NCBI GenBank assembly: GCA_021204025.1
Contig: JAJQAC010000050.1
Span: 1-64,000 of the forward strand
Length of the DNA: 64,000 bases
Reading direction: 5' to 3'
Origin: Clostridiales bacterium
Lineage (GTDB): Bacteria > Bacillota > Clostridia > Lachnospirales > Lachnospiraceae
In this document: positions 15,464 to 60,343 of the stretch, one piece after another
Layout of the letters: every line of letters begins with the position of its first letter
How positions within the stretch are numbered: position 1 is the stretch's first letter
Made by a program: the position numbers and the translations under genes
The notes under the pieces: model-generated
Told to the model about the DNA's origin: nothing
Seen by the model: only the letters and a program-made list of their open reading frames with translations
The model's database searches: none

Positions 15464-15553
15464 TATGCGCAGAGCCGTGCATGGTATTTTGCGGCTAATG
15501 CCGCACCCGGCTCGCGCAGCGAGTATAAGACAAAAAGCTGCCTCCTACTCGAT
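15464..15553 (+). repeat. R2 structured repeat, copy a
   Basis: TATGCGCAGAGCCGTGCATGGTATTTTGCGGCTAATGCCGCACCCGGCTCGCGCAGCGAGTATAAGACAAAAAGCTGCCTCCTACTCGAT. Confidence 0.9.
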
Positions 15554-15613
15554 AATCATTGACCCGTACGACCTATCGTATCACAAAGCTGCAGGAATTT
15601 CCATAAAGTAAAA

Positions 15614-15636
15614 AGAATCCTGCAAAGCAGGATTCT
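15614..15636. repeat. Perfect hairpin AGAATCCTGC-aaa-GCAGGATTCT
   Basis: 10-bp perfect inverted repeat with 3-nt loop in the feoAB upstream region. Confidence 0.75.
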
Positions 15637-15675
15637 CCGCCTGCGGCGGGTCGCTTTAGCGACATAATTCCACTC

Positions 15676-15735
15676 CGCCGCAGTGCGATCCGTCGGAGAC
15701 TTTTTATTTCATAGGACGCACTTTCCTATGAAATA
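15676..15735 (+). repeat. R3 structured repeat, copy b
   Basis: CGCCGCAGTGCGATCCGTCGGAGACTTTTTAT then TTTCATAGGA-cgcactt-TCCTATGAAA; stem sequence differs from copy a but remains paired. Confidence 0.9.
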
Positions 15736-22480: not shown

Positions 22481-22484
<4 letters not shown>

Positions 22485-22517
22485 GCTGCAAAACTTCCTT
22501 ACACGCCCGTGTGCATA
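22481..22517 (-). repeat. R2 5'-half fragment overlapping the trpS stop codon
   Basis: Reverse complement TATGCACACGGGCGTGTAAGGAAGTTTTGCAGCTTAA matches the R2 5' half up to the inner loop; the trpS TAA (22482-22484) lies in it. Confidence 0.7.
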
Positions 22518-31250: not shown

Positions 31251-31287
31251 ATCGAGCAGGAGGCAGCTTCTGGCCTCATACTCGCTG
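31251..31287 (-). repeat. R2 3'-half fragment overlapping the murA stop codon
   Basis: Reverse complement CAGCGAGTATGAGGCCAGAAGCTGCCTCCTGCTCGAT versus copy b GGCGAGTATGAAGCGAAAAAGCTGCCTCCTACTCGAT; murA TGA (31276-31278) lies inside GAGTATGA. Confidence 0.75.
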
Positions 31288-32580
31288 TCTGTCGTTTGCG
31301 ATAAGCCGGATTGCGGCTCCCACGGATTGAAGATCCCCACAGATATCCTCATATCCTCTGGCGATACAGGGATATCCGTCTACCAGTGTCGTTCCCTCCG
31401 CTATCAGCCCGGCAACTGCCAGAGCCGCGCCACCGCGCAGATCACGCGCACAGACAGAGGCGCCGGACAGACGCTGACCGCCCTCCACATATACTGTGTT
31501 TCCTTCTATTATAATATTTGCCCCTAATTTCTGCAATTCTTTTGCCGTGGCAAATCTTTCCTCAAAAACCATCTCGCGGATTCTCGAAATCCCATCGGCC
31601 CTGAGCGCCGCCGTCAGCATCACAGACTGCAGATCCGTCGAAAATCCCGGATACGGTCCGGTCTCCAGGATGACCAGTCTTAATATCCCATCCTGTTTTA
31701 CGAGAATCCCGTTCGAAAAGGTCCGCGTCCGGGTACCCATTCTCCCTGCCACCCGCAGATTTTCTTTCATTGCGTTTTCAGGCGCATCACGCAGAAAGAC
31801 CTCGCCGCCTGCCGCCATCACGGCCCCCAGATAGGTTCCTGCCACGATCCGGTCACCCGGTATCGTAAATTCACAGTCCCGCCGGAATTCCCCGCTTCTG
31901 ACTGACAACACATTACTTCCGACCCCTTCGATCTGTACACCCATTTCTTCCAGGAAATGGCAGAGTACCTCAATCTCAGGCTCTCTCGCCGCTCCGGTCA
32001 GCACCGTACTCCCCTCTGCAGCCGCTGCCGCCATCAGCGCCGTCTCCGTAGCGCCTACGCTCGGATACGGCAGATTCATCAACGCTCCGCGCAGCCCGCA
32101 TGTTCTGGCAAACATACGGCTTTCCGTCTCCGTTACGGACACCCCGGTCTCTGTCAGTACCTTCAAATGCAGATCTATCGGCCTCCTGCCAATCGAGCAT
32201 CCCCCCGGCCGTCCAAAAACCACCTCACCAAGTCTTGCCAGAAGCGGAGCACAGAGCATAATCGACGAACGCATTTTTTCCGCTTCATCTGCCGGAATCT
32301 CGCACGAGGTAAGAGCATCCGCCTCGATCACCAACACATCCCCCGCGAACTTCACTCCGCAGCCAAGCGCCCTGAGGATCCGGATCATGCAAAACACATC
32401 CTGAATTCGCGGAACATTTCTTATAACCGTAGTTCCCCGGTTAAGAAGCGATGCTGCCATAACCGGCAGCACCGCGTTTTTAGAACCCTGTATTCTGATT
32501 TCACCCGTAAGTCCCCGTGTTTCCCTGACCTCAATTACTCTGGTATCCGCCATCGTCTCATCTTTCTTCCCTGTCGGCAA
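31276..32580 (-). CDS. murA: UDP-N-acetylglucosamine 1-carboxyvinyltransferase
   Basis: 434 aa; GSKNAVLPVMAASLL; GGCSIGRRPIDLHL; FATAKELQKLGA. Confidence 0.93.
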   Translation of the reverse strand: MPTGKKDETMADTRVIEVRETRGLTGEIRIQGSKNAVLPVMAASLLNRGTTVIRNVPRIQDVFCMIRILRALGCGVKFAGDVLVIEADALTSCEIPADEAEKMRSSIMLCAPLLARLGEVVFGRPGGCSIGRRPIDLHLKVLTETGVSVTETESRMFARTCGLRGALMNLPYPSVGATETALMAAAAAEGSTVLTGAAREPEIEVLCHFLEEMGVQIEGVGSNVLSVRSGEFRRDCEFTIPGDRIVAGTYLGAVMAAGGEVFLRDAPENAMKENLRVAGRMGTRTRTFSNGILVKQDGILRLVILETGPYPGFSTDLQSVMLTAALRADGISRIREMVFEERFATAKELQKLGANIIIEGNTVYVEGGQRLSGASVCARDLRGGAALAVAGLIAEGTTLVDGYPCIARGYEDICGDLQSVGAAIRLIANDRQRV

Positions 32581-50295: not shown

Positions 50296-50330
50296 ATTAT
50301 CATAAAATACCTTACGCGATCGTGTGATCG
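50296..50330 (-). repeat. R2 5'-half fragment adjacent to the pap 3' end
   Basis: Reverse complement CACACGATCGCGTAAGGTATTTTATG, like the R2 5' half (CACACGGCCGCGTAAGGAATTTTATGG). Confidence 0.6.
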
Positions 50331-50417
50331 GACAGGAGACGGCTCTTTGTCTCCTGTCCGCCTGCGCCGGCCGCGTATGGCGTAAGCCATAAAATTCCTT
50401 ACGCGGCCGTGTGCATA
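50328..50417 (-). repeat. R2 structured repeat, copy d
   Basis: Reverse complement TATGCACACGGCCGCGTAAGGAATTTTATGGCTTACGCCATACGCGGCCGGCGCAGGCGGACAGGAGACAAAGAGCCGTCTCCTGTCCGAT: same two-hairpin layout with different stem sequences. Confidence 0.85.
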
Positions 50418-53503: not shown

Positions 53504-53595
53504 TATGCGCACGGACGGATTTGGAAATTTTGCAGCTGACGCTGCATCCGTCCGGCGCGGCGAGTATGAAGCGAAAAAGCTGCCTCCTACTCGAT
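53504..53595 (+). repeat. R2 structured repeat, copy b (between tctC and tctB)
   Basis: TATGCGCACGGACGGATTTGGAAATTTTGCAGCTGACGCTGCATCCGTCCGGCGCGGCGAGTATGAAGCGAAAAAGCTGCCTCCTACTCGAT. Confidence 0.92.
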
Positions 53596-59717: not shown

Positions 59718-59807
59718 ATCGAGCAAAGGGCGACTTGCCGACTCTTGCTCGCTGCGCGGGCCGGGTGCGGCATTAGCCGCAAAATACCATGCCCGGCTCT
59801 GCGCATA
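59718..59807 (-). repeat. R2 structured repeat, copy c
   Basis: Reverse complement TATGCGCAGAGCCGGGCATGGTATTTTGCGGCTAATGCCGCACCCGGCCCGCGCAGCGAGCAAGAGTCGGCAAGTCGCCCTTTGCTCGAT; near-identical to copy a over its first ~60 nt. Confidence 0.92.
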
Positions 59808-59810
59808 TAA

Positions 59811-59841
59811 TCGAGCAGGATGATATCCTCATCCTGCTCGC
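59811..59841. terminator. Hairpin downstream of the cell-wall-binding-repeat protein
   Basis: CGAGCAGGATGA-tatcc-TCATCCTGCTCG. Confidence 0.65.
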
Positions 59842-59851
59842 CGCATAACTC

Positions 59852-60343
59852 CTATTCATACAGATTCAGCTTTAATTTTGTCTGCTGTGACTGAGCCACA
59901 TTTGTCCGACGATTGATATCAAAAGTATTCAGCGTCGTTGTCCACTCATCCGGTGCCGTCTCCATGATAATGGAAACTACGATCTTGGATTTGTTGGCCT
60001 CATCGACCTTATAGTGCAGGATACCATACAAATCTTCATCATCATACCAGCCGGTCTTATTTACCGCGTTTTCCACCAGATAACACGCGGACTCCTGAGT
60101 GAGCGCCGGACGGCTGACCCACTCAGCGGTCTCGGTATCCATATAATACCATACGCCGTCGATATACTGCCATCCGGTCAGATATTCTCCGTCCTGCTCA
60201 TATTTCCAGGCTCCGTCTTCCTGCTTCTGCCACTCGCCCGCCCAGGCGGTCAGGCTCATCGCACCCATCATCAGTACCGCCGCTATGACCGTCAGCCATG
60301 CGCGGCTTTTCCGTTTTTTTCCTTTTCCTTCATAAAATTTCAT
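59852..60343 (-). CDS. Secreted protein with cell-wall-binding-type repeat
   Basis: Signal peptide (KKRKSRAWLTVIAAVLMMGAMSLTAWA) then GWQYIDGVWYYMD choline-binding-like repeat. Confidence 0.65.
   Translation of the reverse strand: MKFYEGKGKKRKSRAWLTVIAAVLMMGAMSLTAWAGEWQKQEDGAWKYEQDGEYLTGWQYIDGVWYYMDTETAEWVSRPALTQESACYLVENAVNKTGWYDDEDLYGILHYKVDEANKSKIVVSIIMETAPDEWTTTLNTFDINRRTNVAQSQQTKLKLNLYE

Follow-up and report, generated by a model that had tools for sequence, protein, structure and literature searches.

Group II introns of the bacterial class C (group IIC) insert directly after intrinsic transcription terminators (PMC4424553, PMC8919778). Acting alone, IIC ribozymes splice almost only by hydrolysis, and their protein-assisted mobility proceeds via lariats (PMC7161350). 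Surveys of bacterial group II introns begin from domain V or from the protein (PMC8919778), and a review judged that few introns without an ORF have escaped notice, except where domain V departs from the known forms (PMC4424553). The group III introns of Euglena plastids, 90-120 nt in length, sometimes consist of DI and DVI only, with no domain V, and presumably rely on factors acting in trans (PMC4424553). In the open-access literature, to which the search was confined, no account was found of bacterial group II elements that are miniature or lack domain V.

Here we describe R2, an uncatalogued, terminator-targeted repeat family which reaches up to ~50 copies per genome. As R2 lacks domain V, it would be invisible to the kinds of survey mentioned above. 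We consider it rather likely that R2, at ~90 nt, derives from group IIC introns, is non-autonomous and is probably mobilised by them in trans.

Architecture and folding of R2

The window (the whole stretch of DNA analysed, 64,000 nucleotides of a Lachnospiraceae genome) contains four complete copies of R2 type A, located at 53504-53595 (+), 15464-15553 (+), 59718-59807 (-) and 50327-50417 (-). Three of these are exactly where the preliminary description had placed them, while the fourth is one base longer than the 50328-50417 given there. With R1, a covariance model trained on own-genome copies including these four, they score 82-108 bits: 108 bits (E 1.9e-24) for the copy at 53504-53595, 88.0 bits each for those at 15464-15553 and 50327-50417, the latter with strong covariation in P1-P3, and 82.3 bits for that at 59718-59807. 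The copy at 53504-53595, on which the description below is based, lies antisense between two minus-strand genes.

The R2 unit is 92 nt in length, lacks any ORF and forms two hairpin arms, and follows the shared plan reported earlier: a stem P1, a conserved bulge, an inner hairpin P2 and a third hairpin ending in CGAT. It begins with TATGCRCA and continues with P0 (GCGC/GCGC with a bulged A), P1 of 9 bp, a one-sided bulge of 11 nt (AAGGAATTTTT or ATGGAAATTTT), P2 of 5 bp with a 4-nt loop, the returning strands P1' and P0', a short linker and finally P3 with its terminal CGAT. On the plus strand of the window, the 5' end TATGCGCA occupies 53504-53511 (compare the 5' GTGCGCC of IIC introns), and the first arm, delimited by fold and covariation, extends over 53507-53558 with P0 at 53507-53510/53555-53558, P1 at 53512-53520/53546-53554, the bulge at 53521-53531 and P2 at 53532-53536/53541-53545. 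P3, which resembles the domain VI hairpin of group II introns, is found at 53561-53593, where the A equivalent to the branch point (53589) is paired with T 53565, and the 3' end CTACTCGAT (53587-53595) is identical to that of IIC introns. Remnants are also present, all on the minus strand: a P3 hairpin at 59810-59864 directly before the copy at 59718-59807 (22.2 bits, E 0.0018), another at 31251-31303 (26.4 bits, E 1.7e-4) and, preceded by a hairpin and T-run, a 5' half at 22481-22517 (nhmmer 24.7 bits, E 2e-6, and by sequence). Degenerate second copies, seen downstream of R2 at three loci (L005, L006, L030) and in the window at ~50300-50320 (-), have an AAGGAG or AAGGT bulge and TTTTATG immediately ahead of the following gene, as though the bulge had been recruited as a Shine-Dalgarno site.

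Measured against dinucleotide shuffles, the R2 fold has a z score of -4.28 as RNA and -4.31 as DNA. Among 25 copies of the host genome (G000), standard pairs fill 95.0% of the pair cells, compared to 87.3% after shuffling, and changes on both sides occur at 15 of the 30 pairs (shuffled mean 7.2). Copies from other genomes show both-side changes at all 30 pairs, with 250 compensatory cells against 60 when shuffled, and reach a covariation score of 0.555, compared to 0.166 when shuffled and less than 0.09 with slid partners, the rows being related and the alignment (A2) fitted to the model, and the slid-partner controls preserving the relatedness. The proposal that P1 and P2 change in sequence yet stay paired, and that selection acts on folded RNA or single-stranded DNA, is thus borne out across genera, where every pair shows compensatory change. 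The accompanying proposal, that the copies are not simply the result of recent duplication, stands for the host but not for a relative, G375, in which near-identical copies are found behind unrelated terminators, pointing to recent spread. The variation among the four window copies reflects in part a few subfamilies and not independent changes. One P0 pair (columns 6 and 53 of alignment A1) is either G-C (16) or A.C (9) in the host, and never A-U; this one-sided variation from G to A suggests that TGCRCA is recognised as sequence and not by pairing alone.

Genomic distribution and terminator target

When the host assembly of 3.04 Mb is searched with one copy, BLAST yields 51 matches, and this genome holds ~50 copies of R2, complete and partial, at sites covered by 40 stretches inspected at the sequence level. 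The preliminary description had looked to a covariance-model search for further copies, and these were recovered both in the host and in related Clostridia. The family is patchy: with the covariance model it is detected in 25 of 392 genomes of the order, belonging to 19 genera and several families, within the genus of the host in three of 24 genomes, and in a class-wide sample of 392 genomes only in the host and one member of its family. No R2 was found in phage, plasmid or viral-contig collections. The earlier statement that R2 belongs to no named Rfam family is supported: in the window, 6S RNA alone is matched at gathering thresholds; at relaxed thresholds R2 and an extra module of its arm receive only chance matches, and no Rfam group II match falls on R2 itself. 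This extra module (CTCCGCTTCGGTCGTTGCTAAA..GTGCCACTGGCAC..AGCAAC) is structured, ~50-100 nt long, and located at one fixed place in the P1' arm in several genomes (loci L036, L038, L039, L013; L135, L143, L148, L149). Identical H1-core-hairpin elements occur with unrelated flanks in two genera (G160, G301; L079, L080, L105-L112), and represent recent exchange or spread.

R2 is located after intrinsic terminators. A T-run and a stable hairpin are found directly upstream of 76 of the 96 distinct copies but in only three of 96 control stretches, these being taken downstream of copies, and the 45 nt upstream have a median MFE of -19.3 versus -6.7 in the controls (p 2.6e-22). The first base 3' of non-tandem R2 is a T in 41 of 47 cases, and likewise in most IIC introns here. 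Where copies are arranged in tandem, their junctions (marked by a slash) read CTCGAT/CGCA or CTCGAT/TGCRCA, and the neighbour on the terminator side is the one with the better fit to the profile in 18 of 18 pairs. Such a polarity would be expected if newcomers insert at one fixed point, the alternative being selection for the first copy only. The first bases of R2, TATG, are retained at new sites and missing at tandem junctions, which a simple insertion model does not account for. The flanks of G375 copies were traced across its genus, in which the intergenic DNA is too diverged for breakpoints, and the tracing yielded no exact empty site.

The window also contains a sister element, type B, at 15610-15734 (-), where it follows the terminator of the 6S RNA gene. 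As recognised by eye and by folding, it consists of a 5' hairpin, a linker, a core of P0, P1, 11-nt bulge and P2, and an intrinsic terminator replacing P3. A second host element of this type precedes the IIC intron (G000:C23, L188), and the host type-B copies examined likewise sit after terminators. Type B has the arm geometry in common with type A, begins with another hairpin, mostly ends in an intrinsic terminator and is mostly without domain VI; it may be a separate mobile family which brings its own landing site with it.

Relation to group IIC introns

R2 mostly ends in CTACTCGAT or CTGCTCGAT, the former being also the end of the IIC introns in these genomes, and its 3' hairpin ends in CUACUCGAU, as does domain VI of the introns. 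P3 is homologous to this domain: when P3 from six genera was aligned with IIC domain VI, at most one of 2000 shuffles did as well. The intron domain VI has the form GAG-AGGGG...CCCCT-A-CTC with the A bulged, and P3 the form GAG-T-AGGGG...CCCCT-A-CTC with the A paired. Between an R2 of G204 (GGCGAGTAGGGG..CCCCTACTCGAT) and an intron of G015 (TGTGAGAGGGG..CCCCTACTCGAT) the main difference is one T opposite the branch A. This A is paired in 79 of the 94 parsed R2 (T-A in 60, C-G in 13, T-G in six), whereas the introns have no partner base opposite it. At the 5' end R2 mostly starts with AUGCR, with GTGYR in five of 81 distinct first copies (GUGYG in IIC introns), and the base of its arm, (R)UGCGC/GCGCR, is similar to the base of the first hairpin of the introns, a resemblance which is the weaker part of the argument. 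No counterpart of the rest of the arm with its 11-nt bulge was found in the introns, and R2 is without domain V, D1-D4 and the exon-binding domains, as well as the intron-encoded reverse transcriptase. No protein families recur beside R2, the clusters of nearby ORFs being almost all translations of R2 itself. As it has no domain V, D1-D4 or protein, and as its branch nucleotide is sequestered, R2 falls outside the group II introns, even though its target and end work like those of one.

Introns and R2 also meet in the genomes. Across the genomes the IIC introns start with GTGCGCC...GGCGCAC a few bases past the T-run of a terminator, and end in CTACTCGAT. In G000 and G204 they end in CTCCTACTCGAT and R2 starts at the very next base (CGCAGG..), a junction equal to the CTCGAT/CGCA of tandem R2. 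The count of group II introns in the host is one, with a D1-D4 match on contig C23 and matches to the maturase domain and to domains V-VI on C77. Its 3' end reads ...CACCGCCTCCTACTCGAT, with an R2 copy beginning at the following base, and its 5' end ...GCAGGATTCTTTTTTATG/GTGCGCCTGGCGGCGCAC, with the junction TTTTTTATG/GTGCGCC. If C23 and C77 carry one intron, in line with the counts, these junctions place it between the TATG and the CGCA of an R2. The only IIC protein frame of the host breaks off after YADD at a contig end and continues, out of unrelated sequence, on a different contig, and the intron gene looks interrupted. In G204 (C65, L167) the IIC intron adjoining R2 itself seems to be interrupted, within domain I, by another group II intron.

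That the interior of such introns may be lost and the remainder joined just behind the first hairpin is seen in G363 (C43, L249:1413-1577), where an IIC intron after a terminator has been deleted internally to 165 nt and retains the first hairpin, DV, and DVI with its bulged A. Among 397 genomes a close full-length match to this derivative is present in G363 alone, together with a 204-nt match of 64% in G901. IIC introns are present in seven of 11 genomes with type A and in 92 of 381 others (Fisher p 0.007, with classes assigned by eye and kinship ignored), a supporting but weak association; over all R2 genomes, ten of 25 carry one (p 0.095), and the association is likewise weak. No group II introns are detectable in the R2-bearing genomes G006, G166 and G357, which speaks against mobilisation of R2 by such introns. 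The maturase domain GIIM alone shows no clear correlation with R2, the Rfam IIC model being more informative.

The descent of R2 from IIC introns is well supported and the structural link between the two is firm; descent from, or parasitism on, these introns is the best explanation of the family. The equality of target and 3' end, as well as the deleted intron of G363, would also agree with each R2 being an immobile, in-place relic of an IIC intron reduced to its 5' hairpin and domain VI, the distribution then reflecting old insertions. This is unlikely, given the near-uniform length and single core geometry across genera, the covariation at all pairs, a core arm which is no part of the introns, near-identical copies at unrelated sites and the ~50 copies of the host, which has a single intron. 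Alternatively, R2 could serve IIC introns only as a preferred landing site, being a hairpin repeat that mimics a terminator or resembles attC and owes its spread to something else. However, the majority of the IIC introns in these genomes adjoin no R2, and R2 has the introns' own 3' end in the same polarity while its A1 consensus is without the AAC/GTT core of attC; although two IIC introns adjoin R2 and attC hairpins are also used by IIC introns (PMC4424553), we regard this as very improbable.

Strong covariation, the invariably better preservation of the first copy in arrays and a position between a terminator and the next gene are features also expected of a structured RNA or DNA beneficial to the host (a regulator in a 3'-UTR or 5'-leader, or a site for the nucleoid or for polymerase stalling), with mobility secondary or past. 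Such a role has little likelihood, since the window copies have both orientations relative to the neighbouring genes, occurrence within the genus is patchy, the location after terminators is one where RNA is scarce, and the homology to domain VI is left unexplained. R2 might also be a DNA element of the REP, MITE or PATE kind, which a transposase, HUH (Y1) or other, mobilises in single-stranded form. Y1 is, however, absent or fragmentary in the R2-bearing genomes G006, G166, G357, G363, G383 and G078 and present in many R2-free ones, and no GTAG motif, TIR or duplication was seen. Hairpin ends without inverted terminal repeats do recall those of the IS200/IS605 type, and the host has two broken IS200-like Y1 genes (L041, L042; G000:C55, C14), but the reading is weakened and highly unlikely. 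The ends of these two genes are unlike R2. The earlier observation that no mobilising gene is adjacent to R2 holds throughout the window. With regard to REP/RAYT, a Y1_Tnp search of the host and 43 genomes gave no correlation with R2, and the RAYT-like genes of G375, G160, G184, G031 and G041 have no R2 nearby; with regard to MITEs, the ends TATGCG and CTCGAT are not inverted repeats and the flanks contain no target-site duplication.

Putative mobility and comparison with known systems

We infer a mobilisation of R2 by IIC introns in trans, with an RNA intermediate, the use in trans of the intron protein and ribozyme, and a docking role for the arm. Type A has the build of a stripped-down IIC intron, with a 5' arm and a domain VI homologue and nothing between. 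R2 RNA may arise by read-through past the terminator and then join the ribonucleoprotein that a complete IIC intron forms in that cell, the conserved arm with its 11-nt bulge being the likely docking site. Insertion in trans would follow directly after intrinsic terminators, by reverse splicing or by 3'-end-primed integration, the DNA copy being made by the reverse transcriptase of the IIC intron, and repeated insertion at the same point would give rise to tandem arrays. Having no domain V, R2 itself catalyses nothing. The paired branch A in 79 of 94 R2 implies that the IEP-dependent lariat route is not open to them as such (PMC7161350), and as R2 is without normal branch formation, integration via a linear 3' end would be expected. 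Since the protein frame of the host intron is broken, movement of R2 in the host is probably past.

A further-reaching reading, possible but rather doubtful, is that R2 are domain-V-less mini-introns of ~90 nt, which would be excised as well as re-inserted in trans by a separate IIC catalytic core and reverse transcriptase. If so, they would provide a natural analogue both of the passage from self-splicing to spliceosome-dependent introns and of the parasitism of SINEs on LINEs. If R2 is a non-autonomous derivative moved by IIC introns, as we prefer, bacteria harbour parasites which resemble SINEs and exploit a ribozyme retroelement, and the change from a self-sufficient to a trans-dependent intron, the supposed route to the spliceosome, would become testable in a cultivable bacterium.

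Among dispersed repeats, REP/RAYT and BIME elements are, like R2, intergenic hairpins at gene ends, but R2 has no GTAG, no RAYT nearby or correlated, and another fold. The BOX-type repeats of streptococci are intergenic, structured and modular. R2 is modular as well in that its arm can hold an extra hairpin module (BOX being compared by description only), and to our knowledge BOX repeats do not have group II intron ends. Group IIC introns (bacterial class C; Rfam RF02001 and RF00029) share with R2 their orientation and position immediately behind intrinsic terminators, the CUACUCGAU end in a domain VI hairpin and the 5' UGCGC at the base of the first hairpin. They are, however, roughly 2 kb in length, whereas R2 is ~90 nt and without D1-D4, domain V and protein, and differs further in its paired branch A and its extra arm with an 11-nt one-sided bulge. 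The length of ~90 nt, the DVI-like part and the lack of DV fit the group III introns, the identity of the arm with DI being putative; group III introns, though, are spliced from genes, while R2 sits after terminators and its bulged A is gone. SINEs are short, non-autonomous elements that have their 3' end in common with a reverse-transcriptase element (LINE). R2 is likewise short and non-autonomous, but it is bacterial and its putative partner is a ribozyme-based retroelement. By analogy, R2 may best be read as a bacterial counterpart of SINEs or of the Euglena group III introns.
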